From: Nitrogeniibacter mangrovi
GTDB lineage: Bacteria > Pseudomonadota > Gammaproteobacteria > Burkholderiales > Rhodocyclaceae
Assembly (NCBI RefSeq): GCF_010983895.1
Contig: NZ_CP048836.1
Coordinates: 3,844,001 to 3,908,000, forward strand
Direction: 5' to 3'
Length of the DNA: 64,000 nucleotides
Shown: piece after piece, positions 12,705 to 27,111 of the stretch
How positions within the stretch are numbered: position 1 is the first letter of the stretch
How the letters are laid out: every line of letters begins with the position of its first letter
Position numbers and translations under genes: made by a program
Notes under the pieces: model-generated
What the model saw: only the letters and a program-made list of their open reading frames with translations
Told to the model about the DNA's origin: nothing
The model's database searches: none

Positions 12705-12718
12705 GACAGGAATCCTCC

Positions 12719-14389
12719 ATGCCTTCCAAGCACCGCATCGCCGCCCTCGCCCTGGCGCTCGCCAGCCCGCTGGCCCTGGCCCAGGGCGCCAACGTGTCGC
12801 CGGGCGCCATCCAGCAACAGCAGCAGCAGGAAGAGCAGCGCAAGTCGCAGGAAAAACGCGTGCTCACGCCCCCGGCCGCACCGCAGATCGAGGTACCCGC
12901 CGGCGGCCCGGCCGAGCCGGCGGCCAAGGCGATGAAGATCGAGGTCCAGCAGATCCTCATCGACAAATCACAGCTGCTCGACCCGGCCGACATCGACGCC
13001 ATCATCACGCCACTGGAAGGGCGCACGGTGACGCTGGCCGAACTGCAGCAGGCGGTCGCGGCCATCAACGCGCTCTACGCCAAGGCGGGGCAGGCCACCG
13101 CGCGCGCCATCCTGCCGCCGCAGACCATCAAGGACGGGCTGGTGCGCATCCGCCTCATCGAGGCCCGGGTGGGCGAGGTGCACATCAAGGGCACCGAGGC
13201 GCTCGACCCGGCCTTCGTGCGCCAGCGCATCGAGCTGGAAGCCGGCGAGCTGCTGTCGGTGCCGGCGCTGGAGGCCTCGCTGGTGCGCTACAACCGCCTG
13301 CACGAGAGCAAGCTGCGCGCCGCGGTGGTGGCCGGCAAGCAGTTCGGCACCACCGACGTGGACGTGACCGCCGCCGAGCCGCAGCGGGCCCGGGTGTCGC
13401 TGTTCTTCGACAATGCCGGCCGCGACACCGTGGGCGAGGCCCGCGCCGGGGTGAACGCCCGTGCCGCCAACCTGGCCGGGCGCAGCGACCTGCTGCAGTT
13501 CGTCGCCACCCGCACCGAGGGCTCGGAGAGCTACGCCCTGTCGTATTCCATCCCTGTCACCCGCAACGACCTGCGCCTCGAGATGTCCGCCAGCAAGGGC
13601 AACATCAAGATCATCGACGGCCCCTTCGATCCGCTCGGCATCACCGGCAGCTCCAGCGACTACACCGTGGGCCTGAGCTACCCGCTGCAGGTGAGCCTCG
13701 AGCGCATGTGGACCGCCTACGGGCGCTTTTCGGCGCGCGAGTCGTCCAGCGAGTTCGGCGGCTTCACCCAGGAGGCGCTCAACCTGCGCGTGCTCACCCT
13801 GGGCCTGTCGGGCGAGCGCCAGACCGATTCGAGCGCCTGGTATGTGGACAACGCCCTGGCCTTCGGCATCAGCGGCGCCTTCGGCGGCGACCAGGGCTTC
13901 TGGTACTACCGCGGCAGCGCCACCCGCTTCGATCGCCTCAGCGAACGCTTCCAGCTGCTCACCCGCGGCGGGCTGCAGTTCTCCGACACCCGCTTCCTGC
14001 CCGCCAGCGAGCTGTTCCAGATCGGCGGCGCCTACACCGTGCGCGGCTTCTCCGAGGGCCTGCTGTCGGGGCGCAACGGCTACTTCATGTCCGCCGAACT
14101 GCGCATCGGCCGCACCCTGGAGGAGTACCAGGCCGCCGAGCCCGGCGCGCCCAACCTCACCGGCATCGTCTTCATCGACCATGGCGGCGCGCTGCCCTAC
14201 CGGCCCGGCGACCTCAAGGAAAGCACTCACGACGACTACCTGACCAGCGTCGGCGCCGGGGTGCTGTTCGACTTCTCCGAGCGCGTCACCGGCCGTCTCG
14301 TCATCGGCCAGCCCCTGCGCGGCAACCCGGCGGAGCTGCACGACCGGCGCCCGCGTCTGCACGCCTCGATCAATATCGCGTTGTACTAG
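12719..14389 (+). CDS. TpsB-family outer-membrane transporter (ShlB/FhaC/HecB type)
   Basis: This 556-residue protein should secrete the adhesin encoded immediately upstream. It starts with a signal peptide (MPSKHRIAALALALASPLA), then a Gln/Glu-rich linker (QQQQQQEEQRKSQEKR) like the periplasmic plug helix of FhaC. Two POTRA-like segments follow at about residues 60-210, then a C-terminal barrel of alternating strands from about 225 to the end. The TVRGF motif near residue 441 matches the conserved VRG(F/Y) of the loop that folds into TpsB barrels. The ATG at 12719 was chosen because an AGG lies 9 bases upstream and the signal peptide begins there; the frame is open far upstream only as an overlap of the adhesin gene. 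The 14-base gap suggests co-transcription. Confidence 0.93.
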   Translation: MPSKHRIAALALALASPLALAQGANVSPGAIQQQQQQEEQRKSQEKRVLTPPAAPQIEVPAGGPAEPAAKAMKIEVQQILIDKSQLLDPADIDAIITPLEGRTVTLAELQQAVAAINALYAKAGQATARAILPPQTIKDGLVRIRLIEARVGEVHIKGTEALDPAFVRQRIELEAGELLSVPALEASLVRYNRLHESKLRAAVVAGKQFGTTDVDVTAAEPQRARVSLFFDNAGRDTVGEARAGVNARAANLAGRSDLLQFVATRTEGSESYALSYSIPVTRNDLRLEMSASKGNIKIIDGPFDPLGITGSSSDYTVGLSYPLQVSLERMWTAYGRFSARESSSEFGGFTQEALNLRVLTLGLSGERQTDSSAWYVDNALAFGISGAFGGDQGFWYYRGSATRFDRLSERFQLLTRGGLQFSDTRFLPASELFQIGGAYTVRGFSEGLLSGRNGYFMSAELRIGRTLEEYQAAEPGAPNLTGIVFIDHGGALPYRPGDLKESTHDDYLTSVGAGVLFDFSERVTGRLVIGQPLRGNPAELHDRRPRLHASINIALY

Positions 14390-14515: not shown

Positions 14516-15844
14516 ATGGATGCGTTCTGGATCCTCATCTTTCTGATCGCCGTCTCGAGCCTGTTCTCGCTCACCGAGATGGCGCTGGCCTCGGCGCGCA
14601 AGGCGCGCCTGCAGCTGATGCTCGAAGGCGGCGAGGCGCGCGCGGCCACGGCGCTGGCCATCAAGGACCACCCCAGCCGCTTCCTCGCCGCCACCCAGAC
14701 CGGCATCACCGCCGCCGCGCTGATGGCCGGCATCTTCGGCGAATCGGCGATGAAGGCCGCGCTCGAACAGGCGGTGGTGCAAGCCGCGCCCCCGCTCGCC
14801 GCCTATGGCGACGAGATCTCCCTGGCGCTGACCATCGCCATCGTCACCGCCCTGTCCATCGTGTTCGGCGAGATCGTGCCCAAACGCATCGCCATCGCCT
14901 ATCCGGAACAGGTGGCGGTGCGCGCCGCGCCGCTGATGCAATGGTTCATCCGCCTGCTGTCGCCGGCCATCCACTTCCTGTCCTGGCTCTCCGACGTGGT
15001 GCTGCGCCTGCTGCCGCTGCGCTCGGCACCGGCGGTGACCGGGGTGGAGGACATCCTCGCCTACGTGGACGAGTCCGAGCGCGCCGGCGCCATCCGCCCC
15101 GAGGAGAGCCATCTGCTGGGCAACGTGTTCCGCCTCGAGGACCGCCGCGTCGGCGCGGTGATGACGCCGGCGGCCGACGTGGTCTTCATCGACCTGCAGC
15201 AGCCGCGCGAACGCAACCTCACGCTGCTGCGCGAGGCGCCCTACTCGCGTTTCCCGATCTGCAAGGGCGGGGTACAGAACGCGGTGGGCGTGGCCGAGAG
15301 CCGCACCCTGCTCCAGGCCGCCCTGGCCGGCGAGATCGACTTCGCCGAGACCCCCATGATCCCGCCGCTGTATGTGCCCAGCGTGCTCACCCTCATCGAC
15401 CTGCTGGCCAGCTTCCGCACCCATCGCACCACCTTCGCCTTCGTGGTCAACGAGTTCGGCCAGACCGAGGGCATCGTCACCCTCGACGACCTGCTCGAGA
15501 CCGTGGTCGGCGACATGAGCCCCACGGCCGCCGATCCGGACGAGGCGCTGGCGGTGCGCCGCCCCGATGGCTCCTGGTTGCTCGACGGCCTGCTGCCGCT
15601 CGACGAGATGAAGGAGAAGCTCGGCGTCCGCACCGTGCCCGACGAGGCCCTGGGCAACTACCACACGGTGGGCGGCTTCGTGCTCGCCCTGCTCGGCCAC
15701 ATCCCCAAGAAGGCCGAGCGCTTCGCCTGGGACGGGTGGGAATTCGAGGTGGTGGATGTGGACAAGAACCGCGTCGATCAGGTTCTCGCGACCGCCACCC
15801 CCGATCCCGCCGCGCCCCGTCCGGCCGACGCGTCCGCCCCCTGA
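14516..15844 (+). CDS. CNNM/CorC-HlyC family membrane protein ("hemolysin" family)
   Basis: 442 residues. The first ~190 are hydrophobic with the DUF21 pattern (SLTEMALASARKARL at the N-terminus, VFGEIVPKRIAI near 120), a CBS-pair region follows (VMTPAADVVFIDL to about residue 330), and the C-terminus has the CorC_HlyC domain (VNEFGQTEGIVTLDDLLE then a short beta domain). Family members are inner-membrane proteins linked to Mg2+/Co2+ efflux or resistance; the hemolysin name is historical. The start at 14516 gives a first membrane helix directly after the Met; longer in-frame versions add Arg-rich, non-coding-looking sequence. It appears monocistronic; the next gene runs on the other strand. 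Confidence 0.88.
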   Translation: MDAFWILIFLIAVSSLFSLTEMALASARKARLQLMLEGGEARAATALAIKDHPSRFLAATQTGITAAALMAGIFGESAMKAALEQAVVQAAPPLAAYGDEISLALTIAIVTALSIVFGEIVPKRIAIAYPEQVAVRAAPLMQWFIRLLSPAIHFLSWLSDVVLRLLPLRSAPAVTGVEDILAYVDESERAGAIRPEESHLLGNVFRLEDRRVGAVMTPAADVVFIDLQQPRERNLTLLREAPYSRFPICKGGVQNAVGVAESRTLLQAALAGEIDFAETPMIPPLYVPSVLTLIDLLASFRTHRTTFAFVVNEFGQTEGIVTLDDLLETVVGDMSPTAADPDEALAVRRPDGSWLLDGLLPLDEMKEKLGVRTVPDEALGNYHTVGGFVLALLGHIPKKAERFAWDGWEFEVVDVDKNRVDQVLATATPDPAAPRPADASAP

Positions 15845-15979: not shown

Positions 15980-16306
15980 TCAGCCAGCGACGGACTGCGC
16001 GTGGCGCGGCTCGTCGCCGAGCGCGCGCAGGTAGGCCCACGGGTAGATGCCGCGGGCATGGCCATCGGCGAAGACGAGGTTGAGCCCCTTCTCGGCCACG
16101 GGGTGGATGTCGACGAGGGCGGCGGGTGGAGGCGGCGGGGCGCCGGTGCGGGCGGCGTGGGTGCAGACGGCGCAACGGCAGCGCTGGCGCAGCCAGCCGT
16201 GGGGCAAGGCGCTGGTGTGCCCGTCGCTCCATTCGATGCGCAGCACCGCCGAGGCGCGGTGATCGGTGATGCCGACCGGCATCACCGATGCGGTCGCCAC
16301 GCTCAC
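15980..16306 (-). CDS. DUF971 (GBBH-like N-terminal domain) protein
   Basis: About 108 residues. Recognised by the domain pattern LRIEWSDGHTSALPHGWLR, then RCRCAVCTH, then GIYPWAYLRAL. This fold is the N-terminal domain of gamma-butyrobetaine hydroxylase and also occurs alone or on Mrp/ApbC-like proteins; standalone members have no firm function. The Cys-rich CRCAVC could bind metal. The GTG at 16306-16304 overlaps the TGA of the upstream ABC ATPase as GTGA, implying translational coupling; an ATG at 16282 is the alternative start (100 residues). It is the last gene of the sulfur-related cluster. 15845-15979 holds GC-rich palindromic sequence but no gene that I can support. Confidence 0.8.
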   Translation of the reverse strand: MSVATASVMPVGITDHRASAVLRIEWSDGHTSALPHGWLRQRCRCAVCTHAARTGAPPPPPAALVDIHPVAEKGLNLVFADGHARGIYPWAYLRALGDEPRHAQSVAG

Positions 16307-17172
16307 AGCGCTGCCCTCACGCCTTCCGGGCCCAGGTGCCAGTCGCGGCCCAGGCCCCCTTCCTGGAGTTCGCCGCCCATGGCCGCCAGGCTCTCCTCGC
16401 GGATCAAGGCCTTCAGGCGATGATGGATGGCGAGGAATTCCGCCGAGGAGGTCATCTCCGCGGTACGTGGCCGCGGCAGGGGAATGGGGATCTCCGCCTT
16501 GATGCGGCCCGGCCGCGCGGTCATCACGTAGACCTTGTCGGACAGGAAGATGGACTCCTCGATGTCGTGGGTGATGAACAGCACCGACAGCTGCAGTTGC
16601 TCCCACATGTGGGTGAGGATTTCCTGCATCACCAACCGCGTCTGGGCGTCGAGGGCTCCGAAAGGCTCGTCCATCAACAGCACCTGCGGGCCCGTGGCCA
16701 GGGCCCGCACGATGCCGACGCGCTGGCGCATGCCGCCGGAGAGCTGCTCGGGATAGTGATTCTCGAAGGCCAGCAGGCCGGCGAGCCCCAGCAGCGTGCG
16801 CGCCTTGGACTGGCGCTCGCTGCGGCACATGCCCTGCATCTTGAGACCGAATTCGACGTTCTCGCGCACCCGCAGCCAGGGAAAGAGCGAATACTGCTGG
16901 AAGACGACGCCGCGATCGGCGCCGGGGCCGTGGATGGGCGCCCCGTCGACGCTGACCGTGCCGCCGCTGGGTTTGAGAAATCCCGCCACGATGTTCAGCA
17001 GCGTCGACTTGCCGCACCCGGAGGGCCCGACGATGGACACGAACTGGCCGGGCTGGACGTCGATCGACACCCCGCTCACCGCGTCCAGCCCCACGCCGTT
17101 CTGCGTGAAGCGGACGGATACATCGCGGACGTCGATCTGTCCGCCCTTGGTTGACGCTGTCGTCGCCATCAT
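16303..17172 (-). CDS. Nitrate/sulfonate/taurine-type ABC transporter ATPase (SsuB/TauB family)
   Basis: 289 residues with a complete nucleotide-binding domain: Walker A GPSGCGKS at 49-56, Q-loop QQYSLFPW near 92-99, signature LSGGM at 144-148, Walker B VLLMDEP at 164-170, and H-loop in FITHD. It should energise import through the permease encoded just upstream. Its ATG overlaps the permease TGA as ATGA (17172-17169) and its own stop overlaps the DUF971 start, so the three are translationally coupled. The family imports nitrate, bicarbonate, taurine, alkanesulfonates and thiamin precursors; sequence alone does not give the substrate. The AprA-like and TauE neighbours favour a sulfur compound. 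Confidence 0.92.
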   Translation of the reverse strand: MMATTASTKGGQIDVRDVSVRFTQNGVGLDAVSGVSIDVQPGQFVSIVGPSGCGKSTLLNIVAGFLKPSGGTVSVDGAPIHGPGADRGVVFQQYSLFPWLRVRENVEFGLKMQGMCRSERQSKARTLLGLAGLLAFENHYPEQLSGGMRQRVGIVRALATGPQVLLMDEPFGALDAQTRLVMQEILTHMWEQLQLSVLFITHDIEESIFLSDKVYVMTARPGRIKAEIPIPLPRPRTAEMTSSAEFLAIHHRLKALIREESLAAMGGELQEGGLGRDWHLGPEGVRAAL

Positions 17173-18131
17173 GAACTCTCCTTGCCGCCCACACCCTGCC
17201 AGGGCATGAGGATTCGGGCGACCCCGCGAATGAGGCCGCTGCACAGCAGACCCAGGACGCCGATGACCAGCATGCCGATCACGATGTGCGGGTATTCGAT
17301 CAGGGAATACGCCTCCCAGGTGAAGTAGCCGACGCCGAACTGGCCGGAGATCATCTCGGCCGCGATCAGCGACACCCAGGCCACCCCCATGCCCACCGCC
17401 AGCCCGGTGAAGATGTGGGGCAAGGCCGCCTGCAGCACCACCTGGGTCATCAGTGCGAACTCGCTGGCGCCCAGGCAGCGCGCCGCACGGATCAGCACCT
17501 TGTCCACCGCCATCACCCCATGCAGGGTGTTGAGCAGGATGGGGAAGAAGGCGCCGATGAAGGTGATGAAGACGATGCTGGACTCGGTGGTGGGCCACAG
17601 CATGATCGAGATCGGCACCCAGGCGATCGCGGGAATCGGCCGCAACACTTCCAGCGCCGGGAACGTCAGTCCCTTGAAAAGGCTGTAGCGTCCGCACAGC
17701 AAGCCCATCGCCACGCCCAGCACGGTGGCGATGAGGAAACCCACCGTGATCCGCCACAGGCTGACGCCGATGTTGGTGAGAAACTTGCCATCGGCGAGCA
17801 GACGCAGCGCCTCGCCGAACACCTCGCCCGGCGTGGGCACGTTGGTGAAGCGGACATAAAATTCCCAGCGGTAGGCGGTGGCCAGATACCAGAAACCCAG
17901 CAGCAGGCCGATCGACAGTGCGCTGACCAGCATCGGCCGGATCTGCCCTCGGAGGATGGCGCCCAGCCGTGCGGCCGGTGGCACGGCCCCGGCCGCGGGC
18001 GCCGACGCGCGCGCCGCGACCGGGGCACGGGGCACCGGTTGCACCGTGGCGACCGGCGTGGGGCCAGCGGCCCCGCCGGCACCCAGGGCGTCCGTGTCGC
18101 GCACGGCACGCATGCTGACGGTGCTGGCCAT
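17169..18131 (-). CDS. ABC transporter permease (SsuC/TauC/NrtB family)
   Basis: 320 residues. A long Ala/Pro-rich cytoplasmic N-terminus (about 70 residues) precedes six predicted membrane helices. The EAA loop is visible as ARCLGASEFALMTQVVLQAALP, which docks the ATPase. It is the single permease of the transporter and presumably acts as a homodimer. It starts with an ATG a few bases after the stop expected for the binding-protein gene and overlaps the ATPase start by four bases. The proline-rich N-terminal extension is longer than usual for the family; a start further inside would give a standard-length permease. Confidence 0.92.
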   Translation of the reverse strand: MASTVSMRAVRDTDALGAGGAAGPTPVATVQPVPRAPVAARASAPAAGAVPPAARLGAILRGQIRPMLVSALSIGLLLGFWYLATAYRWEFYVRFTNVPTPGEVFGEALRLLADGKFLTNIGVSLWRITVGFLIATVLGVAMGLLCGRYSLFKGLTFPALEVLRPIPAIAWVPISIMLWPTTESSIVFITFIGAFFPILLNTLHGVMAVDKVLIRAARCLGASEFALMTQVVLQAALPHIFTGLAVGMGVAWVSLIAAEMISGQFGVGYFTWEAYSLIEYPHIVIGMLVIGVLGLLCSGLIRGVARILMPWQGVGGKESS

Positions 18132-18134
18132 GGC

Positions 18135-19588
18135 TCAGTCCCCCACGGCGGCGAGCGCGTCGGCATACCCCCGACCCGCCCGCCCTTGGCCGTCACATAG
18201 GCCTCGGCGTCCTTCTTGAGCAGGAAGGGCACGATGTCGCCGGGATCGCCCTTGCTGTCGAGCGCGTAGAACGCGGTGTTGGCGAACAGCTTGATCTGGC
18301 TGCCGCGGTCGAAGACGAAGGTCACCGACACCTTCTTGCCCTCGGCCTCCGCCTTCTTCACCGCGCGCAACGCGCACGCCGTGGACTTGTAGGCCGTGAT
18401 GCCACCGCCCTCGATCCACACCTCGCCGGCCTGACGCGGCTTGTCGATGGCGCCGCCGCACAGCGGGTCGGTGCCCGAGATCTCGTAGTTGGCGAAGCTG
18501 GCCTTCTCCGCGTCGTAGTCACGGCCCAGTTCCTTGTAGGCTTCGCGCACATAGGTCTCGTCGACCCAGGCGTCCGCGTCCAGGGGTTTGACCCGCCCCA
18601 TGCGGTCGAGCACGCCGTGGTCGTACTTGACGGTGTCGATCCACTTCGGCTTGAGCGTCGGGTCGAGCGTATGCACGCCGCCCGGGCCGAGGAACATGTA
18701 GACCACTTCCTTCTCGACCCGCGTCCATTCCTCGATCTTGGCCGCCGCCGCCACCGGATCCTTGCGCAACCAGTCATTGGCCGCCATCAGCGCCTTGATG
18801 TAGGCAACCACGAATTCCGGGTACTTCTTGGCGAAGTCCTCGCGCACGATCACGCCATGAAAGGTCGGCACCTTGGTTTCGGCACCGTCGAAGATCTTGC
18901 GCGCAAAGCCCCGGTAGGGCAGCAGTTCGCCGAAGGGAACGAAGTCGGCGTGCCCGTCGATCCGCTGCTCCTGCAGGCTGGAGGTGCCCACTTCCGGACT
19001 CTGGCTGGTCAGCACCAGGTCGTCGCTCGTCCACCCCTTGTCTTCGAGTGCCTTGAGGAGCATGCCATGGGCGGCCGATCCAAAGGGTACCGACACTTTC
19101 TTGCCCTTGAGATCGGCCAGTTCGTAGTAGGGCGAATCCTTGTGCACCACCAGGGCGTTGCCCGCACCGTCGGCGTTGTAGGCGATCATGGCGATCAGGC
19201 GGGTGCGCTCCTTGGGCATCGCCTGGAAGATGGCGCCGTTCACCAGCAGCGGATAGTCGCCCATCATGCCGATCTGCAAGGTGTTGGCGACCATGCCGTT
19301 GGTGACCGGCGGCCCCGAGGTGAAGTTCTGCCAGTCGATCTTGAACTCGATGTCCTTGTACTTGCCGGTCTTGGGCAAGAACTTCTCGAGCAGGCCGAGC
19401 TCCTTGATGACGATGCCACCGGTCACCGTGTTGGTGGTGGTGTTCTGGGTACCGATGCCGACGGTGACGACTTCGGCCAGCGCGGGCGTTGCCGCGAAAC
19501 AGCCGGCAAGCAGGGCGGCGGCGGTGAATCGGCGGACGGAATTTTTGTTGTGATTGTCTCGAGCGGTGCTTCTGGATCGTGCGTACAT
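18135..19588 (-). CDS. ABC substrate-binding protein (NrtA/SsuA/TauA-like) with C-terminal NosL-like domain; apparent frameshift near the 3' end
   Basis: Starts MYARSRS with a signal peptide ending ATPALA (about residue 38) and AAGGAAGC upstream. Residues about 40-365 form a periplasmic binding protein of the nitrate/sulfonate/taurine class (GMMGDYPLLVNGA, VHKDSPYYELADLKGKKVSVPFG). Residues about 374-484 are an extension resembling NosL: LCGG, then EVWIEGGGITAYKSTACALR, then a PFLLKKDAEAYVTAKGG-type ending. The frame breaks at a run of five C (plus strand, about 18169-18173); one extra base gives a natural end YADALAAVGD at 18135 and a 484-residue protein, whereas the uncorrected frame runs 776 codons into the permease gene. 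The ligand is unknown; neighbours suggest sulfur. Confidence 0.82.
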
Positions 19589-19681
19589 GATTTGCTTCCT
19601 TGTCCAGTGGGGTGTCGTTTCGTTCGAGTACTGCGGGGTTGGGGGCTTACGGTTGAGGTTGAGGGAAAGGGGGTTGGCGGA

Positions 19682-19706
19682 CCGCCGCGGCCTCAGGCCG
19701 TGGCGG
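19682..19706 (-). other. Hairpin spanning the ferredoxin stop codon
   Basis: An 11-bp stem with one G-T mismatch (CCGCCGCGGCC / GGCCGTGGCGG on the plus strand) has the TGA of the 7Fe ferredoxin gene as its loop. No U-run follows in the transcript, so it is more likely an RNA-processing or stability element, or a partial terminator setting the ratio of ferredoxin to ABC binding-protein mRNA, than a full terminator. Confidence 0.4.
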
Positions 19707-20028
19707 GGTTGTCGATGAGGGCGCGCTTGTCGGTGACCGCGGCCCAGTGATCGGCCTCGGGCAAGGGCTCGCCCGCCGCGTCGATCACCGGCCACTGCGC
19801 CGCCAGGCGCGCGTTGATCTCGATGAACGCGTGCTGCTCCGGCGGCAGGTCGGCCTCGGCGAAGATCGCGCCGATGGGGCACTCGGGCACGCACACGCCG
19901 CAGTCGATGCAGGTGTCCGGATCGATCACGAGGAAATTCGGCCCTTCGTGGAAACAATCCACCGGGCACACCGAGACACAGTCGGTGTATTTGCAATGCA
20001 CACAGGCTTCGGTAACGACGTAGGTCAT
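19693..20028 (-). CDS. fdxA: 7Fe ([3Fe-4S][4Fe-4S]) ferredoxin, AvFdI type
   Basis: 111 residues, collinear with Azotobacter vinelandii ferredoxin [19 protein letters not shown] at residues 9-26, [11 protein letters not shown], then [12 protein letters not shown], and a long acidic tail. The first motif has the C-x7-C-x3-CP spacing of the 3Fe cluster with an extra Cys (C12), the second the C-x2-C-x2-C-x3-CP of the 4Fe cluster. It is a soluble low-potential electron carrier. In this cluster it probably donates electrons to, or accepts them from, the AprBA-like enzyme encoded upstream (inference). It lies 72 bases after the HEAT gene and 104 bases before the binding-protein gene on the same strand. 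Confidence 0.93.
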
Positions 20029-20100
20029 GGCTGATCTCCTGTCAGGCCGGCCGCATCGCAGCGGGCCGGCATGGTGGTGATGGGGGGCTGGACGGGCGGC

Positions 20101-21048
20101 TCACTTCTGCGCCAGGCCGATGGCGGTGAGCGCCAGGCGCGAGAGCTTGCGCACGTCGGGGTCGGCATCGTCGAGCGCCTTTTCCAGCGCCGGGATGGCG
20201 CGCGGATCGGCCAGCTCGCCGAGGGCGATGGCGGCCTCCTTACGCAGGTTGCCGATGGGATGGGCCAGGGCCTCCACCAGCGCGGGCAGGCCGGCCGCCG
20301 CCTTGAGCCACCCCAGGCTGCGCGCCGCCTTCACCCGCACCTGCCAGTATTCGTCCTGCATGGCATGCACGAGCTCGTCGATCGCCAGACCGAAGCGCAG
20401 CTTGCCGAGGGTCTGGGCGGCTTCCTCGCGCACCTGCCAGGCGGTGTCGCCCAGCGCACGGGTCAGCGCCGGCAGCACGCTGATCTCGGTGGCGTAGCCG
20501 AGCGCACCGACGGCGATGCGCCGCACCTCGGCTTCCGGGTCGTGGGCGGCCACTTCGGCCAGGTCGCCGACGGCCTCGGGTTTGCGCAGATAGCCGAGCA
20601 CGCCGACAGCCTCGCGGCGCACGCCCGGATCAGCATCGCGCAGCGCGGCCATGGCCGGTGCGAAGGCGGCGTCGACCCGCAGGGCGCGCACGGCGCGGAA
20701 GGCCAGCATGCGCACCTCGGCGCCCTCGCCCTGCAGCAGGGGCAGCAAGGGACCGGCGGAGGCGCTGAGCTTGAGCTCGGCCAGCACCTCGCCGGCGGCG
20801 GCGCGCACCTGGGCGTCGGCATCAAGCAGCATGGGCGCCAGCGCGGCGACCACCTCGGGGTCTTCGAAGCCTTCGAGGGCGCGGACCGCTTCGGTGCGCA
20901 CGCTGGGGTCGGCGTCGGCCAGACACGGCAGCAGCAGCGGCACGATGTCGTCCTCGTCGCTGTAGGGCAGGTCGATCACCGCCAGGCGGCGGACTTCGGC
21001 GTCCTCGCTGGCGAGGCGATCGGCGATGGAGAAGCTGGTGATGTCCAT
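20101..21048 (-). CDS. HEAT-repeat protein
   Basis: 315 residues made almost entirely of about 31-residue helical repeats with the PBS-lyase/HEAT signature (DADPSVRTEAVRALEGF, DADAQVRAAAGEVLAEL, DPEAEVRRIAVGALGYA, DADPDVRKLSRLALTAI). No signal peptide or membrane helix, so cytoplasmic. HEAT-repeat proteins are usually scaffolds or maturation factors; nothing identifies a catalytic site. It starts 10 bases after the AprB-like stop and precedes the ferredoxin gene, so it probably helps assemble, load or dock the iron-sulfur flavoenzyme (inference from position). Confidence 0.88.
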   Translation of the reverse strand: MDITSFSIADRLASEDAEVRRLAVIDLPYSDEDDIVPLLLPCLADADPSVRTEAVRALEGFEDPEVVAALAPMLLDADAQVRAAAGEVLAELKLSASAGPLLPLLQGEGAEVRMLAFRAVRALRVDAAFAPAMAALRDADPGVRREAVGVLGYLRKPEAVGDLAEVAAHDPEAEVRRIAVGALGYATEISVLPALTRALGDTAWQVREEAAQTLGKLRFGLAIDELVHAMQDEYWQVRVKAARSLGWLKAAAGLPALVEALAHPIGNLRKEAAIALGELADPRAIPALEKALDDADPDVRKLSRLALTAIGLAQK

Positions 21049-21058
21049 GGCCGTGTCC

Positions 21059-21292
21059 TCAGCGCAACAGGTAGGGAATGCTGACCGTGACCGCGTCGGT
21101 CGGGCAGTCGGTCTCGCAGGGCAGGCAGTACCAGCACTCGTCGTATTTCATGAAGGCCTTCTTCTTGACCATGTCGATGGCCAGCACATCGAGCGGGCAG
21201 ACGTCGACACAGACGGTGCAGCCCTTCTCGGCGATGCACTTGCTCTCGTCGACGACGACGGGGGCTTGGGTGAGGGTGGTGGCGATACTCAT
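21059..21292 (-). CDS. Minimal AprB-like 2x[4Fe-4S] ferredoxin subunit
   Basis: 77 residues with two cluster motifs: C19-x5-C25-x2-C28-x3-C32-P and C53-x2-C56-x2-C59-x3-C63-P. The segment KKAFMKYDECWYCLPCETDCP resembles the second cluster region of adenylylsulfate reductase beta subunits, but the protein ends about 14 residues later and lacks the long C-terminal tail with which AprB wraps around AprA. It starts 25 bases after the AprA-like stop. Likely role: the electron-transfer subunit of that flavoprotein. It could also be called a generic dicluster ferredoxin; the AprB reading rests on the motif plus the partner gene. Confidence 0.85.
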   Translation of the reverse strand: MSIATTLTQAPVVVDESKCIAEKGCTVCVDVCPLDVLAIDMVKKKAFMKYDECWYCLPCETDCPTDAVTVSIPYLLR

Positions 21293-21317
21293 GTCGGGTT
21301 CCTCCGGGCGGTCGGGA

Positions 21318-23048
21318 TCAGGCGGCGGCGGCGCTGCGGGCGACGCGCAGGCGCTGGTAGGCGGTGCGCTCTTCCTCGTCGATGGGCACGATGTAGGGCT
21401 CGACCGCCTTCTTGCGCACGCCCATCCGGCCTTGCGCGTCACGACTGAGCAGGGTGTGGCAGAACCAGTTGTCGTCGTCCCGCTCGGGGTGATCGACGCT
21501 GTAGTGGTACAGGCCCCAGCGGCTCTCGGTGCGGAACATCGAGGCGCGCGCGGCCATCTCGGCGCAATCGAGGATGGACAGCGCCTCCATGGCGCGCATG
21601 AGCTCGTGCGGGTTGGTGGCCATCATCGCGGTGGCGTCCTCGCGCACCTCGTCGAAGCGGCGCAGGCCGATCTCGTACTTGCGGGTGATCTTGGGCGGCT
21701 GCAGGTAGTCGTTCACCAGCCGGCGCGTCTTGTACTCGATCTGGAAGGGCGTGAGCCCTTCGCTGCGCGCCAGCGGCGCGCAAATGCGGGCCTGCTCGGC
21801 CGCGATGGCGCCGTCATCGATGCGCCCCGTGCCCACCCCGGCGCAGTAGTCGGCGGCGTTCTGCCCGCACAGGCGGCCATAGACGAAGGCGCCGAGCATG
21901 TAGTTGTGCGGCACGCTGGCGCAGTCGCCGGCGGCGTAAAGCCCCTTTACCGAGGTCTCGCCGCGGGCGTTGGTCCAGATGCCCGAGGCACTGTGGCCGC
22001 TGCAGAAGCCGATCTCGGAGATGTGCATCTCGACCATCTCCTTGCGGTAGTCGTTGCCGCGCTTCTCGTGGAAGCGGCCGCGGCTGGGGCGCTCGTTGGT
22101 GTGCAGGATGTGCTCGATCTCGCCGATGGTCTCCTCGGCGAGGTGGTCGAGCTTGAGGAACACCGGGCCGTTGCCGCCCTGCAGCTCGTTGTAGAACTCC
22201 ATCATCATCTGCCCGCTCCAGTAGTCGCACTCGATGAAGCGCTCGCCCTTCGAATTGGCGGTGAAGCCGCCGAAGGGACCGGTCACGTAAGCGCAGGCCG
22301 GGCCGTTGTAGTCCTTGATGAGCGGGTTGATCTGGAAGCATTCGAGGTTGGCCAGATCGGCCCCCGCGTGATAAGCCATGGCATGGCCGTCGCCGCAGTT
22401 GGTGGGGTTCTCGTAGGTGCCCATCAGGTAGCCGGAGGCGGGCAGGCCGATGCGCCCGGCGGCGCCGGTGCTGAGCACCGCCGCCTTGCAGCGGATCACG
22501 TAGAAGTCCGCCGTGCGGCAGTCGAAGCCCATGACGCCGGTGATCTCACCGTCGGCGCCGGTGAGCAGGCGGGTGACCACCACCCGGTTGGTGATCTCGA
22601 CCCGCGCGCGCTTGAGCTGGCGGTAGAGGATCTTCTTCATGTGGTGGCCTTCGGGCATCGGCAGCACGTAGCTGCCCAGGTGATGCACCTTGCGCACCGC
22701 GTAGTCGCCGGTTTCGTCCTTCTCGAACTTCACCCCCCAGCGGTCGAGCTCCTGGATCATGTCGAAGCTGTTGGCCGCATAGGCCATGACCGCCTCCTGA
22801 TCGACGATGCCGTCGTTGGCGATGGTGATTTCCTTGACGTACTGCTCGGGGGTGGCGTGCCCCGGAATGACGGCGTTGTTGAGCCCGTCCATGCCCATCG
22901 AGATCGCGCCCGAGCGCTTCACGTGGGCCTTGTCGATGAGCAGCACCCTGAGGTCGGGGTTTTGTGCCTTGGCTTTCACCGCGGCCATCGGCCCGCCGGT
23001 GCCACCGCCGATGACGACGATGTCGAACTCCATGTCGATGCGTTTCAT
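21318..23048 (-). CDS. AprA-like FAD-dependent oxidoreductase (fumarate reductase/APS reductase flavoprotein superfamily)
   Basis: 576 residues. The N-terminal FAD Rossmann motif is VVIGGGTGG (12-19), followed by a ribityl-binding stretch (LLIDKAHVKRSG), the superfamily segment AAVLSTGAAG near 190, an FAD-contact region GLYAAGDCASVPHNYMLGAFVYG in the second half, and a helical C-terminal domain with RTESRWGLYHYSVD. It is shorter than bona fide AprA (above 600 residues), but pairing with an AprB-like ferredoxin supports this branch over succinate dehydrogenase or aspartate oxidase. Predicted cytoplasmic redox enzyme; the substrate is unknown, with a sulfur oxyanion or adduct favoured by the TauE and ABC context. 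AGGAG lies 5 bases before the chosen ATG. Confidence 0.87.
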   Translation of the reverse strand: MKRIDMEFDIVVIGGGTGGPMAAVKAKAQNPDLRVLLIDKAHVKRSGAISMGMDGLNNAVIPGHATPEQYVKEITIANDGIVDQEAVMAYAANSFDMIQELDRWGVKFEKDETGDYAVRKVHHLGSYVLPMPEGHHMKKILYRQLKRARVEITNRVVVTRLLTGADGEITGVMGFDCRTADFYVIRCKAAVLSTGAAGRIGLPASGYLMGTYENPTNCGDGHAMAYHAGADLANLECFQINPLIKDYNGPACAYVTGPFGGFTANSKGERFIECDYWSGQMMMEFYNELQGGNGPVFLKLDHLAEETIGEIEHILHTNERPSRGRFHEKRGNDYRKEMVEMHISEIGFCSGHSASGIWTNARGETSVKGLYAAGDCASVPHNYMLGAFVYGRLCGQNAADYCAGVGTGRIDDGAIAAEQARICAPLARSEGLTPFQIEYKTRRLVNDYLQPPKITRKYEIGLRRFDEVREDATAMMATNPHELMRAMEALSILDCAEMAARASMFRTESRWGLYHYSVDHPERDDDNWFCHTLLSRDAQGRMGVRKKAVEPYIVPIDEEERTAYQRLRVARSAAAA

Positions 23049-23118
23049 GCTTGCTCCTGGGGGTTGGGAGTGTCCTGCTTCGTTCAGGCAGTTGCCGGGG
23101 CCGGTTCTGTGCCGGTCC

Positions 23119-23898
23119 TCAGCTGCGGTCGATCCGCAGGCGGTACTGGAAGGCATCGCCGCGGTAGTACAGAAACTCGAAATCGATGGGCCGCTCACCG
23201 GCGTAGGTCAGCCGCTCGATGCGCAGCAGGGGCGAGCCCTCGGCCACGTCGAGATGGCGGCCGAGCGACGTTTCGGCGCTGATCGCCTCGATCTGCACGT
23301 CCGCATGCGTGAGGTTGTGGCCGTAGTCGTTTTCGAGAATGACGAAGATGTCGCGGGTGGCGAGGTCTTCCTGCGTCAGGCGCTGGCCGATGTCGATCGG
23401 GAAGTAGCTCACATCCACGGAAATGGGCTCGCGGTTCAGATAGCGCAGCCGCTGGATCTCGAACACCGGGCTGCCCGCCTCCAGCGCCAGGCGCTGCGCG
23501 ACCACGGCACTGGCCGGCACCTCGCGGGCGCTCAGCAACAGGGCATAGGTCTCGTACCCGGACGGCGCCATCGCCTCGCCGAAACCCTGCAGGCGCGACA
23601 GGCTCTGGAAGGCCTTGGGCTTGGCCACGAAACTGCCCTTGCCCATCACCTTGAAGATCAGGCCCTCCTTCTGCAGATCGCCCAGCGCCTGGCGGATGGT
23701 GATCCGGCTCACCCCGAAGCGCGCCATCATCTGGCTCTCCGAGGGCATCTGCGAATGCGGCGGATAGGTGCCATCGAGAATGCCGCGCCGCAGGGCCTCG
23801 CGGATCTGGGTATGCAGCGGCACCGGAGACACGGCGTCGATCGCGTGCGGCTTGGCCAGGGGCGGCGTTTCGATGGCTTTCTTGTTGGAGCGGGCCAT
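23119..23898 (-). CDS. GntR/HutC-family transcriptional regulator (UTRA domain)
   Basis: 259 residues. The winged helix-turn-helix is at about 28-92 (LRRGILDGTYPPHSQMPSE, then FGVSRITIRQALGDLQKEG) and a UTRA ligand-binding domain at about 110-255. HutC-type regulators are usually repressors released by the pathway substrate or an intermediate. It sits between the TauE exporter gene and the AprA-like gene on the same strand, so it is probably the local regulator of the cluster. TTATG(T/A)C heptamers lie just upstream of its own start and upstream of the exporter gene and may be its operators. Confidence 0.92.
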   Translation of the reverse strand: MARSNKKAIETPPLAKPHAIDAVSPVPLHTQIREALRRGILDGTYPPHSQMPSESQMMARFGVSRITIRQALGDLQKEGLIFKVMGKGSFVAKPKAFQSLSRLQGFGEAMAPSGYETYALLLSAREVPASAVVAQRLALEAGSPVFEIQRLRYLNREPISVDVSYFPIDIGQRLTQEDLATRDIFVILENDYGHNLTHADVQIEAISAETSLGRHLDVAEGSPLLRIERLTYAGERPIDFEFLYYRGDAFQYRLRIDRS

Positions 23899-23910
23899 GT
23901 TTCTTCTTCC

Positions 23911-23934
23911 TTATGTCACTACCTGTTATGACGA
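23911..23934. promoter_or_regulatory. Putative GntR operator upstream of the regulator gene
   Basis: TTATGTC at 23911-23917 and TTATGAC at 23926-23932 lie 13-22 bases before the GntR start (23898). The same two heptamers recur upstream of the exporter gene at 24966-24982, in the other order. Shared rare AT-rich words at the two promoters of a cluster containing one GntR regulator suggest autoregulated operators; the spacing differs between the two sites. Confidence 0.4.
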
Positions 23935-23980
23935 GTACTGATTAGCAATTCAGATGCCAGGTTTGCGGCGTCGCACAATT

Positions 23981-24877
23981 TCAATTCACATCGTTGGTTT
24001 TATTGAAGTTTTTGAAACTCGGCGCGAGTTCGCCAGCAAAAAAATGCTGCGGATGCGCACCAGCCGCGTGCGCGTGCGCACCAAGAGCGGGGCCGGCACG
24101 CACCGGCGCGGCCTGGACGCCCCGGGGCCAGGCCGCCAGCAGGCCGGCCGCCATCAGCAGCACCAGCACCACCGGGCGGAAATGCCGTTTGCCGATGCGC
24201 CGGTACAGGCGCGCCCCACCGAGGCCCCCGAGATGGAACAGCGGCGCGAGCGCCAGGCCGAAGACCACGTCGGCCCAGGACAACACCCCCAGCGCGGCCA
24301 CCGCGATCACCGCCGCCGGATAGAGCACCGCAAAGAACACGATGAAGTTCGCCCGGGCCCGGTGGCCATCGGGCTCGACGCCCAGGAGATAGAGAATGGC
24401 CGGCGGCCCACCGACGCCGCCGAAGCCGGTCAGCACACCGCTGAGCATGCCGACCCCGAGCGAGCGCCGCAGCGAACGCCCCCCCATCCGCAGCACGCCG
24501 GACATCAGCCCGATCGCGCTCAGGATCACGGCCACGCCCAACACCAGACCGAAAGCCTGCGCAGGCAAGGCCCCCACCAGCGCGATGCCGCAGGGCACCC
24601 CGACGAAGGCGGCCACGCTCATCGGCAGCATGACCTGGCGGTCGATCACACGCGTGGCGGCGGCCAGGGTGGTGCGTCCCATCGGCAGGGCGTTGAGCAG
24701 GGTCACCAGACACATGGTTTCGCGGGCGCTGAGCACCAGCGACATCAAGGGCGCCATCAACAGCGCGGCACCGAAACCGGTCAGTCCGCGCAGCGCACCG
24801 CCGACGAGCGCGGCCACCAGCACCACACCCCAGGTCGGCGCATCCCAGGCACCAAGACATTGGAAGATTTCGTTCAA
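23981..24877 (-). CDS. TauE/SafE-family anion exporter (probable sulfite/organosulfur exporter)
   Basis: 298 residues from a TTG at 24877, with seven to eight hydrophobic helices and the two related Gly-rich halves of the family (ALVGGALRGLTGFGAALLMAP at the start, SGVLTGFGGVGGPPAILYL in the middle). TauE members export sulfite, sulfoacetate or related anions made by sulfonate degradation, fitting the rest of the cluster. The TTG is preceded by AAAGG 6 bases upstream and puts the first helix at the N-terminus. An in-frame ATG at 24958 would add 27 unstructured residues, but it lies next to a -35-like TTGACA and so probably upstream of the transcript start. A polar His/Ala tail follows the last helix. 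Confidence 0.83.
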   Translation of the reverse strand: MNEIFQCLGAWDAPTWGVVLVAALVGGALRGLTGFGAALLMAPLMSLVLSARETMCLVTLLNALPMGRTTLAAATRVIDRQVMLPMSVAAFVGVPCGIALVGALPAQAFGLVLGVAVILSAIGLMSGVLRMGGRSLRRSLGVGMLSGVLTGFGGVGGPPAILYLLGVEPDGHRARANFIVFFAVLYPAAVIAVAALGVLSWADVVFGLALAPLFHLGGLGGARLYRRIGKRHFRPVVLVLLMAAGLLAAWPRGVQAAPVRAGPALGAHAHAAGAHPQHFFAGELAPSFKNFNKTNDVN

Positions 24878-24961
24878 GATCGGCCTTTCGATGAGGAGCG
24901 TTGCCCGCCATGGGCGCCGATTTGGATGAGCGGCGGTCCGGGGCCAGGGGGTACGCATCAA

Positions 24962-24985
24962 CTTGTTATGACAGGTTATGTCAAG
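24962..24985. promoter_or_regulatory. Imperfect palindromic operator/promoter element upstream of the exporter gene
   Basis: The 24-base element has symmetric ends CTTG...CAAG and contains GTTATGAC and GTTATGTC 10 bases apart. Read on the minus strand it begins with TTGACA (24984-24979), a perfect -35 hexamer; I see no convincing -10. It shares its heptamers with the region upstream of the GntR gene, so it is the best candidate for the cluster's main operator. Confidence 0.5.
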
Positions 24986-25130: not shown

Positions 25131-26138
25131 TCACCCGAACCGCGCCAGCAGGGTCACGATGCCCAGCCCGGCGATCAGCAGATACGCCCACAGCGAGGCC
25201 GCCAGCCACCAGACCCGGGCGCCCGCGGCGCGGATGTCGACCAACCGGGTTGCCGCGCCGAGGGCCGCCAGACCCACCGCCAGCAGCAGTTGCGCCAGGC
25301 CGGCGCCGGCCGCCTGGAGCGTCGGCGGCAGCAGGCCACTGCCATTCAAGGCGATGGCCGCGAAGAAGGCCCAAAGAAAGAACGGCACCCGCACCCGCCC
25401 GCCACCGCTCGCGCGCCCGTCGGACCACGCCATCCAGACCATCGCCGGCGCCAGCAACATCACCCGCATCATCTTGGCGATCAACGCCGCGCCCGACACC
25501 TCGGGGCCCAGGGGGCTTGCCGCCGCCACCACGTGACCGAGCTCATGCACGGTCAGGCCGATCCACAAACCGAACTGAGCCGCCGGGAGGCCTACCCGAT
25601 CGAAGAGCCACGGCAACACATACATGCCCAGGGTGCCGAACAGCACCACCGAGGCGACGGCGGCCGACACATGGCGCGCGCGAGCGCCGAGCACGCCGTC
25701 GGCCGCGGCCACCGCGGCCGCGCCGCAGATGGCGCTGCCCGCACCGATCAGCAGGGCGCTGTGGCGATCGAGGCCGAACGCCCGCCCGAGCCGCTGCGCC
25801 AGCCACAGCGTGGAGGCGACGACCACGACCGCCGCGAGGGCGCCCCCCCAGCCCACGGCCGCGAATTCGTCGATGCCGATCCTCAGCCCGTACAGCGCGA
25901 TCCCCGCACGCATCAGCGGGCCGCGCGCCAGCGCCAGCCCGTCGCGTCCCCGCGTCGGTAGATCGGGCCACAGGTTGCCCACCACCATGCCCAGCGCCAC
26001 CGCCACGGGCAGCCATCCGAGCCCATGACGGCCCATGGCAGGAATCGCCGCCAGCATCGCCGCGAGGAACGTGATCCCGACGCAGGCGAAGAGACCGAGG
26101 CGGACACCAGGCGGGGGCAGGGTGGCACTTATGCTCAT
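25131..26138 (-). CDS. yeiH: YeiH-family putative sulfate/sulfite exporter (UPF0324)
   Basis: 335 residues with about ten hydrophobic helices and family-typical stretches: RAGIALYGLRIGIDEF near 77, LIGAGSAICGAAAVAAADGV near 130, GLTVHELGHVVAAA near 205, and FFAAIALNGSGLLP near 270. YeiH proteins are annotated as putative sulfate exporters. The gene diverges from a LysR regulator, the same arrangement as enterobacterial yeiH/yeiE, where YeiE is reported to respond to sulfite. It runs in the same direction as the AprBA-like cluster and ends 253 bases before it. That gap (24878-25130) contains the operator at 24962 and no gene. Confidence 0.88.
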   Translation of the reverse strand: MSISATLPPPGVRLGLFACVGITFLAAMLAAIPAMGRHGLGWLPVAVALGMVVGNLWPDLPTRGRDGLALARGPLMRAGIALYGLRIGIDEFAAVGWGGALAAVVVVASTLWLAQRLGRAFGLDRHSALLIGAGSAICGAAAVAAADGVLGARARHVSAAVASVVLFGTLGMYVLPWLFDRVGLPAAQFGLWIGLTVHELGHVVAAASPLGPEVSGAALIAKMMRVMLLAPAMVWMAWSDGRASGGGRVRVPFFLWAFFAAIALNGSGLLPPTLQAAGAGLAQLLLAVGLAALGAATRLVDIRAAGARVWWLAASLWAYLLIAGLGIVTLLARFG

Positions 26139-26184
26139 TTGCGTATATCCAAAGACATGAATGGCATAAGACTAAAAAGCCCAT

Positions 26185-26202
26185 TACTATTCGTAAATAG
26201 TA
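26185..26202. promoter_or_regulatory. Perfect inverted repeat in the yeiH/lysR divergent promoter
   Basis: TACTATT-CGTA-AATAGTA forms a perfect 7-bp inverted repeat centred in the AT-rich 97-base intergenic region, 34 bases before the LysR start and 47 bases from the yeiH start. Position and symmetry suit a LysR-type binding site controlling both genes. Confidence 0.6.
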
Positions 26203-26235
26203 TTAAATTCACCCATTCATTACCTGGGCTCATAC

Positions 26236-27111
26236 ATGAATCTGCACCTGCTCCGCGTGTTCGTCACCGTGGTGGACGCCAGCAGCTTTTCGCGCGCCGC
26301 CGACCAGCTCGGCATCAGCCAGCCGGCCACCTCGAAGGCGGTCAAGGAACTCGAAAACCAGCTGGACACGGTGCTGCTCGACCGCCAGGGCAAGCGCTTC
26401 GCCCCCAGCGCGCCCGGCCAGGCGCTGTACGACTACGGCCGCGCGATCTTCGCGCTCGAACGCGAAGCGGACGAGGCAGTGAAATCGTTCTACGCACTCG
26501 AACAGGGGCGCCTGGTGATCGGCGCGAGCACGACCATCGCCAGCTACTGGCTCCCCCCGAGCCTGCTCGCGTTTCATCAGCGTCACCCCGGTATCGAGCT
26601 GAGCGTGATCAGCGCCAACACCGAGCAGATCGCCGAGCTGTTGCTCGACTGCCAGGTGGATGTGGCGCTGGTGGAGGGCGAGGTCAGCGATCCGCGGATC
26701 GAGATCCTCTCCTGGCGCAGCGAGGAGATGATCGTGGCGGCACCGCGCGACTTTGCCGACGAGGAGGCCGGCGCCCACGCCCTGGCTCAGCACACCTGGG
26801 TGATGCGCGAACGCGGTTCGGGCAGCCGGGCCGCCGCGCAGCGCATCCTCGACGAATACCGGATCCGGCCGGCCCAGGTGATCGAAGTGGGCAGCAACGA
26901 GGCCATCGTGCAGTCGGTGGCGGCGGGCATCGGTCTGGGCCTCGTGCCGCGCATCTGCGCCCGCGACCAGCTGGCGCTGGGGCGCATCCGCAAGCACGCC
27001 ATCGGCGCTGGCCCCTGTATGCGCCAGCTCTATCGCATGCGCCTGCCCCGGCGCCCGGTGAGCCAGCCGGCGCTGGCCTTCGAGGCGCTCCTGGCAAGCC
27101 GGACGGCCTGA
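26236..27111 (+). CDS. LysR-family transcriptional regulator (YeiE/CysB-like context)
   Basis: 291 residues. The N-terminal winged HTH is textbook LysR (MNLHLLRVFVTVVDASSFSRAA, then LGISQPATSKAVKELE) and the C-terminal periplasmic-binding-like effector domain runs from about 92 to 290 (LVIGASTTIASYWLPP, AAGIGLGLVPR). It is transcribed away from yeiH across a shared AT-rich promoter, so it most likely activates yeiH. By analogy with enterobacterial YeiE its effector may be sulfite (inference from synteny). The 222 bases after it (27112-27333) contain no gene that I can support. Confidence 0.92.
   Translation: MNLHLLRVFVTVVDASSFSRAADQLGISQPATSKAVKELENQLDTVLLDRQGKRFAPSAPGQALYDYGRAIFALEREADEAVKSFYALEQGRLVIGASTTIASYWLPPSLLAFHQRHPGIELSVISANTEQIAELLLDCQVDVALVEGEVSDPRIEILSWRSEEMIVAAPRDFADEEAGAHALAQHTWVMRERGSGSRAAAQRILDEYRIRPAQVIEVGSNEAIVQSVAAGIGLGLVPRICARDQLALGRIRKHAIGAGPCMRQLYRMRLPRRPVSQPALAFEALLASRTA

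Follow-up and report, generated by a model that had tools for sequence, protein, structure and literature searches.

A 64,000-nucleotide stretch of the Nitrogeniibacter mangrovi genome (contig NZ_CP048836.1, positions 3,844,001 to 3,908,000; hereafter the window) carries a putative organosulfur gene cluster built around an AprA-like flavoprotein, a small ferredoxin, a HEAT-repeat protein and an ATP-binding cassette (ABC) importer (table 1). The minus-strand run begins with tauE (24958 or 24877) and ends with the DUF971 gene (15980), and the intergenic gaps, counted from the DUF971 gene to tauE, are -4, -4, 3, 104, 72, 10, 25, 70 and 82 bp. The original prediction had described ten collinear genes on one strand with tight or overlapping junctions, which the open reading frame (ORF) and family searches bear out. 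All ten are real, but the extent was drawn too narrowly, because a YeiH-family gene and a divergent YeiE-like LysR gene that adjoin the run (25131-27111) had been missed.

Table 1. Genes and predicted operators of the cluster, in window coordinates.
Feature	Position	Strand	Basis or remark
DUF971 / GBBH-like_N protein, 108 aa	15980..16306	-	PF06155 2.6e-22; 4 bp overlap with ATPase gene
ABC transporter ATPase, taurine/nitrate/sulfonate type	16303..17172	-	PF00005
ABC transporter permease, NtrB/TauC/SsuC type	17169..18131	-	PF00528
Substrate-binding protein, SsuA/TauA-like lobe and C-terminal NosL-like domain (probable)	18135..19588	-	NMT1-type; TIGR01728, PF05573 weak
FdxA-type ferredoxin, 111 aa	19693..20028	-	NF045490
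HEAT-repeat (PBS-lyase type) protein	20101..21048	-	HEAT_2 7e-49
Mini-ferredoxin, AprB-core-like, 2x[4Fe-4S], 77 aa	21059..21292	-	8 Cys and DECWYC motif
AprA-like FAD flavoprotein, PRK08275 family, 576 aa, presumed catalytic subunit	21318..23048	-	NF006131, tree, residue mapping
GntR/UTRA (HutC-type) regulator	23119..23898	-	PF00392 and PF07702
Predicted operator ACTCGTCATAACAGGT before gntR	23921..23936		motif scan
TauE/SafE exporter	23981..24958 (start ATG 24958 or TTG 24877)	-	PF01925
Predicted operator ACCTGTCATAACAAGT before tauE	24961..24976		motif scan
YeiH-family exporter	25131..26138	-	TIGR00698, PF03601
YeiE-like LysR regulator, divergent from yeiH	26236..27111	+	NF040889, NF040786

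Conservation of the gene set was followed in 89 loci (cited by L numbers), which comprise the best 80 of 150 from a named genome collection, a choice that under-samples distant relatives, and nine stretches taken from 55 plasmid records matching the flavoprotein at 1e-30. The loci are akin by descent and transfer, and binomial and Fisher figures overstate significance; some loci are truncated at contig ends, and a second transporter may be counted among the ABC matches. Matches were found for the flavoprotein in all 89 loci, the mini-ferredoxin in 88, the HEAT protein in 87, GntR in 82, the binding protein in 81, the ATPase and the permease in 79 each, FdxA in 70 and the DUF971 protein in 61, and this conservation excludes chance as the source of the gene set. 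Betaproteobacteria repeatedly show the gene order GntR-flavoprotein-ferredoxin-HEAT-FdxA-binding protein-permease-ATPase-DUF971, and much of the core is present also in Alpha- and Gammaproteobacteria, a cyanobacterium and an actinobacterium. A cyanobacterial plasmid row holds flavoprotein, ferredoxin, HEAT protein, an Mrp-type Fe-S carrier, YeiH and TauE, and plasmid pTcM1 of A. caldus holds GntR, a PRK08275-like flavoprotein, mini-ferredoxin, HEAT protein, FdxA, a GltD/DHOD-type reductase and ABC genes. The closest flavoprotein match in the named collection is that of Denitromonas iodatirespirans (97% identity). Carriers are scattered: the family cut-off is exceeded in 7 of 41 relatives, and a class-wide sample of 369 genomes contains 5 carriers, the source genome being included in both counts. 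Neighbour frequencies given below refer to the 60 loci whose flanks extend 4 kb or more ahead of the flavoprotein and 9 kb or more behind it; neighbour genes were clustered, and the named clusters are the larger plausible ones among at most 76 clusters listed.

The flavoprotein, which would bind flavin adenine dinucleotide (FAD), is a member of the NCBIfam family PRK08275 (NF006131; 1070.9 bits, cut-off 587). This family and PRK13800 (NF010374) are both labelled 'fumarate reductase/succinate dehydrogenase flavoprotein subunit', a label that is misleading. In a tree of 48 rows, the 26 family rows (the window and 25 others) form one clade (97/98) beside AprA, MtPAPSR and one further lineage, L016 (93/95, below the star level of the tool), and succinate dehydrogenase (SDH), NadB and an AsfA candidate are placed on the opposite side. 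Long branches, including those of AsfA, TcuA, L016, NadB and MtPAPSR, were flagged by the tool, as was an atypical composition of MtPAPSR, AsfA and NadB. The nearest PDB matches rank in the same sense, with the archaeal MtPAPSR at 4e-57, the A. fulgidus protein AfAprA at 7e-41 and FrdA at 1e-26. Against the SDH/Frd model TIGR01812 the flavoprotein reaches 176 bits (cut-off 567). The position of Frd H232 is occupied by Asn241 in the 26 rows and the R287 region is not kept in the rows inspected, these two being what we take to be the catalytic residues of Frd. Tree and PDB ranking uphold the earlier view of an AprA-like flavoprotein, and the grouping with fumarate reductases or NadB that was to speak against it was not seen. 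A flavoprotein of L016 (G034) scores between PRK08275 and AprA (300 and 253 bits, under both cut-offs), has Val at the N74 position and perhaps represents a third AprA-side family.

AprA-side ancestry does not make the protein an APS (adenosine 5'-phosphosulfate) reductase. In AprA, R265 and R317 contact the sulfo/phosphate groups. The R265 position is Leu243 in the window and Leu in all 25 other family rows, and the R317 position, placed through the CLRNH motif of the AprA rows, falls in a gap in the five rows inspected of the 26; this placement is our assumption, and that stretch of A. fulgidus AprA lies outside the alignment. Some AprA and Frd residue numbers and roles are likewise presumed, and the numbering of H398 was matched through the GxH motif. 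N74 (N57) and the H398-equivalent His (H352) are invariant in the 26 rows and H446 (H381) is kept, with W234 and F448 each replaced by Tyr. The flavoprotein falls below the cut-offs of both AprA models, TIGR02061 (167.8 bits, cut-off 641.75) and PRK06854 (284.6 bits, cut-off 557), the second of which discriminates poorly because the Pseudomonadota AprA rows found also fall below it. The 26 rows, from Proteobacteria, a cyanobacterium and an actinobacterium, share 182 invariant positions, including an arginine-rich stretch (R320, R323, H327, R330, R335) that the AprA, MtPAPSR and SdhA rows do not share and that could hold an anion. The C-terminal ESRW/ETRW region is common to the flavoprotein and AprBA/MtPAPSR. 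The structure model is poor (predicted local distance difference test, pLDDT, 65; residues 237-353 below 50), and the active site was therefore read from the alignment alone; a Foldseek search with this weak model, which gives MtPAPSR first and then FrdA and AprA mixed, is supportive at most. Judged by sequence, this is an AprA-side protein but, since R265 and R317 are not kept, no APS reductase.

Eight Cys and the DECWYC motif of the mini-ferredoxin are conserved in more than 95% of 89 rows. Like AprB it has two [4Fe-4S] motifs and a Trp beside cluster II, but the spacing of the first motif is unlike that of AprB, the C-terminal tail is missing and the score on TIGR02060 (36 bits) is below the cut-off of 135.65. 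The window pair resembles AprBA and MtPAPSR in its plan (FAD protein and 2x[4Fe-4S] ferredoxin, with the AprB-like Trp, N74 and the H398-equivalent) and differs from them in the substituted R265 and W234, the unlocated R317 and the absent AprB tail, as well as in the added HEAT protein, ABC importer and exporters. AprBA proper, in contrast to AprBA likeness, is not supported: Leu stands at the R265 position, the R317 region lacks a counterpart in the rows inspected, and both TIGR cut-offs are missed. The HEAT protein matches positions 607-896 of PRK13800, a fused protein that corresponds to the flavoprotein and HEAT protein of the window joined together; because this fusion exists, as in an actinobacterial plasmid (Tsukamurella, L109; 1568 bits), the HEAT protein is a probable subunit of the flavoenzyme.

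FdxA (NF045490, 162.8 bits, cut-off 135) is the only electron-transfer partner identified beside the flavoprotein in the window. Elsewhere, at least one of FNR, a GltD/DHOD-type reductase and electron-transfer flavoprotein (ETF) is encoded in 41 of the 60 loci. FNR occurs in 29, the GltD/DHOD-type reductase in 11 and the two never together (Fisher p 0.0003, which ignores descent); ETF is found in nine. From gene content, we read these proteins as different ways of connecting the enzyme with NAD(P)H or other carriers. The GltD/DHOD-type reductase has about 1185 residues and is PRK06567-like (821 bits, below the cut-off of 1072); counted over all 89 loci it is present in 17 (L076, L080, L096 and L106 included), and its first 300 residues are without a Pfam match. 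The DUF971 protein is a possible Fe-S assembly helper, an idea toward which the Mrp/NBP35-type protein in the cyanobacterial cluster was counted.

The importer resembles sulfonate importers, in agreement with the import of a sulfur anion that had been suggested from the ABC type. The best curated models are SaoA (268 bits) and TauB (254 bits) for the ATPase, all those shown being below cut-off, and NtrB (145 bits) and TauC (125 bits) for the permease, also below cut-off. The binding protein misses both TIGR01728 (117.7 bits, cut-off 163.5) and TIGR01729 (82.4 bits, cut-off 304), and a PDB search with its profile yields TauA (1.6e-22) and SsuA (3.8e-18). With its AlphaFold model (pLDDT 82.7), Foldseek ranks 1-8 are all TauA/SsuA, headed by TauA 6ssy and followed by SsuA 3uif, 3ksx and 2x26, so that the closest folds of the modelled protein are sulfonate binders. 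The C-terminal region of this protein (18140-18480) is probably a NosL-like domain of the copper-site type, and two of its Cys are conserved in 90% or more of 42 rows; PF05573 matches at 9.7e-5 in the window, under the gathering score, and at 4.9e-5 in L108 (24.1 vs 24), and the NosL fold is absent among the 50 Foldseek matches listed. Near 18160 the gene is one base shorter than that of its nearest relative, L024, which alters about the last 11 codons; the literal ORF overruns the expected stop to 17666 and crosses the permease gene in another frame. Judging from the comparison, this is either a real indel or an assembly error.

On the export side, TauE exceeds the PF01925 cut-off (83.4 bits, cut-off 32.6). 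The neighbouring YeiH-family protein scores 207.3 bits on TIGR00698 (cut-off 232.6) and 239.9 bits on PF03601 (cut-off 24.5), and the LysR protein 180 bits on NF040889 (cut-off 480) and 210 bits on NF040786 (cut-off 250). YeiH confers sulfite resistance in Salmonella under the control of YeiE (PMC12880088). The divergent LysR and YeiH-family genes adjoining the cluster recall this system, but unlike the curated pair both score under the NCBIfam cut-offs. Of the 60 loci, 32 have a match to YeiH or TauE. Identity among the YeiH copies of the window, L044 and L108 is only 29-31%, and they are differently placed, which suggests that YeiH was recruited to the cluster repeatedly. The source genome has nine TauE-family and two YeiH-family genes, so YeiH is the stronger sign of the two.

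A candidate operator would connect the exporter with the flavoprotein. From 8-mer and palindrome counts in 83 regions before gntR a 16-bp palindrome, ACTTGTCATAACAAGT, was derived; classic GntR-type operator patterns, which matched 3 of the 83 regions, were set aside in its favour. At up to two mismatches the palindrome occurs in the window at two places only, before gntR and before tauE (table 1), given by three listed matches of which two are one site counted on both strands, against 0.02 expected in 64 kb. The second site abuts the ATG at 24958, one of the two possible starts of tauE. At up to one mismatch, 72 sites were found in 60 of the 89 loci, and none in a control of one mononucleotide shuffle per locus. 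Of these sites 45 precede gntR, nine tauE-type genes, six the GltD/DHOD-type reductase and four the flavoprotein; eight are unassigned, two of which coincide with the beginning of a longer gntR frame. Because gntR regions were the source of the motif, the gntR sites are not independent evidence. Those before tauE, the reductase and the flavoprotein are independent, and are thus evidence that exporter and reductase belong to the regulon of the flavoprotein. The palindrome is probably the operator of GntR. Sulfite export, which the original prediction had suggested from TauE, is made likelier by the YeiH gene and by this shared predicted site.

In the comparison with known systems, AsfAB is, by analogy, the nearest characterised counterpart known to us. 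AsfRABC of Pseudomonas putida S-313, an aryl-desulfonation system, likewise combines a flavoprotein/ferredoxin pair with a sulfonate-type binding protein or ABC transporter, and its hosts (Variovorax, Polaromonas, Cupriavidus) overlap in kind with those of the present cluster; its regulator is a LysR protein, whereas here it is GntR. The original asf paper is reportedly that of Vermeij in 1999. The asf genes are described as complementing ssu (PMC4267179), and asfRAB of strain CH34 is located on CHR2 (PMC2864759). Identity of the flavoprotein with AsfA was rejected: no PRK08275 member is found on the whole of CH34 CHR2, where the best match reaches 83.8 bits against the cut-off of 587, and AsfA is therefore outside the family. 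A positional AsfA candidate (56 bits) belongs to a flavoprotein-ferredoxin pair at 927.9-929.9 kb near ABC transporter genes. Rmet_4334 is expected at about 923 kb by our own arithmetic, in which six tauD tags were assigned by order to six TauD matches and the match at 10 kb was treated as the final one of these tags. A LysR gene was not seen next to the candidate, though the name asfRAB implies one, and the identification is not certain; its tree branch is long (8.1), on the SDH/NadB side, and its placement unsure.

The statement that no pathway with this gene set had been characterised or published stands in part. No experimental characterisation was found in the open literature (most subscription journals lay outside its scope), but the homologues belong to the named families PRK08275 and PRK13800, and a role had been predicted. 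Plasmids of A. caldus, pTcM1 among those drawn, are described as carrying 'ferredoxin/APS reductase/GntR' and 'NirT/TauT sulfonate transporter' modules, for which organosulfonate uptake and assimilation were predicted in 2025 (PMC12375680). The sections of that account dealing with these modules offer a prediction, without phylogeny, operator or exporter analysis of the cluster.

The well-known cleavage enzymes of aerobes, SsuD and TauD, use oxygen. Neither has a match at E 0.001 in the source genome. In a sample of 45 genomes (41 relatives and four further carriers, the carrier and non-carrier groups being unmatched), 9 of 11 carriers and 33 of 34 non-carriers lack SsuD; as those nine carriers show, the module can occur without ssu. 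SsuD as a partner of the cluster was considered and not retained (present in 2 of 11 carriers vs 1 of 34 non-carriers, p 0.14). A role as substitute for the assimilatory reductase of 3'-phosphoadenosine 5'-phosphosulfate (PAPS) was set aside in view of the three PAPS_reduct-family matches in the source genome together with the missing arginines. No ATP sulfurylase or Apr/Qmo gene is among the neighbour clusters named, and no dedicated search for them was made.

Our results are read, tentatively and with a little less than even confidence, as a GntR-controlled operon for organosulfonate import, ferredoxin-linked release of sulfite by a flavoprotein-HEAT-ferredoxin complex, and sulfite export; the substrate, the electron direction and the desulfonation are what we infer. 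The SsuA/TauA-like binding protein, permease and ATPase would bring in a sulfonate, on which the complex of AprBA ancestry would act. Electrons would be exchanged at the FAD with FdxA and, in relatives, with FNR, the GltD/DHOD-type (Nfn-like) reductase or ETF. Sulfur would leave as sulfite, most simply through reductive C-S cleavage by way of a flavin-N5-sulfite adduct, and TauE and YeiH would push out the surplus. GntR would repress gntR-flavoprotein and tauE from the 16-bp palindrome until its ligand arrives, and the DUF971 protein may help Fe-S assembly. An FAD-N5-sulfite mechanism has been proposed for MtPAPSR, acting on PAPS, and for APS reductases (PMC10322725). That the complex represents a new class of oxygen-independent desulfonase, in which flavin N5 attacks the sulfur, the C-S bond is cleaved, sulfite passes to TauE/YeiH and NAD(P)H serves through FNR, the GltD/DHOD-type reductase or ETF together with FdxA, is a narrower proposal that we consider doubtful.

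Several observations weigh against the favoured interpretation. Since R265 and R317 are not kept, AprA chemistry is not simply transferable, and the extension of the flavin-N5 route to a C-S bond, an analogy of our own, is weakened by the loss of these arginines. ETF, where it occurs, would fit an oxidative reaction too. Neither TauE nor YeiH was found by the probes used in 28 of the 60 loci, and with nine TauE-family genes in the genome the presence of TauE alone is a weak sign. The palindrome is lacking in 29 of the 89 loci, including L106-L112 (the A. caldus, Acinetobacter, three Alphaproteobacterial, cyanobacterial and actinobacterial plasmid loci). At p 0.14, the SsuD distribution argues neither way statistically. 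In Cupriavidus pinatubonensis the cluster is adjoined by an NtaA/DmoA-type FMN-dependent monooxygenase and SsuA-type ABC genes, and this monooxygenase could perform the cleavage in that host. The SsuA-type genes, and an aliphatic-sulfonate binding protein about 9 kb from the cluster in M. radiotolerans, fit sulfonates, yet leave room for an oxygenase.

Among the alternatives, the one that survives best, though rather unlikely in our judgement, keeps the sulfur role and changes the substrate or chemistry: the complex would oxidise or reduce another imported organosulfur anion (a sulfinate, S-sulfonate, thiosulfonate or unsaturated sulfonate), and sulfite would arise directly or later. The binding protein shares only about 20% identity with TauA/SsuA and stays under the curated cut-offs, the sulfinate desulfinase DszB is also among its fold matches (ranks 11-13), and the nine loci with ETF would suit a different chemistry; sulfonate binders, on the other hand, top both the fold and the sequence searches. 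It is improbable that the cluster is an AsfAB-like accessory unit supplying electrons to an oxygenase encoded elsewhere. The layout of flavoprotein, ferredoxin and binding protein/ABC transporter is the same as that of AsfAB (PMC4267179), and one relative, C. pinatubonensis, has its monooxygenase next door. SsuD and TauD are nevertheless without a match in the source genome, most carriers lack SsuD, AsfA is outside the PRK08275 family, and no oxygenase is among the frequent neighbour clusters named (smaller clusters being unannotated and other oxygenase families not searched). Still less credence is given to an oxidoreductase for a nitrate-, bicarbonate- or pyrimidine-type substrate that stands beside sulfite exporters by chance, as the operator is common to tauE-type genes at nine sites and three distant YeiH lineages occur at the clusters, even if the NMT1 superfamily includes bicarbonate and thiamine-precursor binders and permease and ATPase also score on nitrate models. 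A true APS/PAPS reductase, or the reverse oxidation of sulfite to APS, is the least probable of all, for despite MtPAPSR and AfAprA as closest solved structures and the kept N74 and H398-equivalent His, the residues at R265, R317 and W234, the neighbour clusters named (no ATP sulfurylase or Apr/Qmo gene, without dedicated search) and the PAPS_reduct-family matches already in the genome all stand against it, and importer and exporters would be left unexplained.

Two features elsewhere in the window are recorded for completeness. At 21-14389 on the plus strand a very long repetitive adhesin-like ORF of 4227 aa is followed by a ShlB/FhaC-like outer-membrane transporter, which, from the sequence, looks like a two-partner secretion pair. 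The ARAGORN call of a tRNA-Tyr (anticodon ata) at 14746-14842 on the minus strand lies inside what is presumably a CorC/CNNM-like gene and is probably a false positive.

About 95% of soil sulfur is stated to be organically bound, largely as sulfate esters and sulfonates (PMC4267179). If the organosulfonate interpretation is true, the cluster would add to the sulfur cycle a route of sulfite release without SsuD or TauD, and proteins now called fumarate reductase would be corrected. Its hosts include Rhodocyclales, Burkholderiales, rhizobia, methylotrophs and a cyanobacterium, and it is carried also on plasmids (55 records); the operator motif renders the regulon testable. Should the more doubtful proposal of a new enzyme class hold as well, an oxygen-independent desulfonase would span Proteobacteria, Cyanobacteria and Actinobacteria, hidden under the name 'fumarate reductase'.

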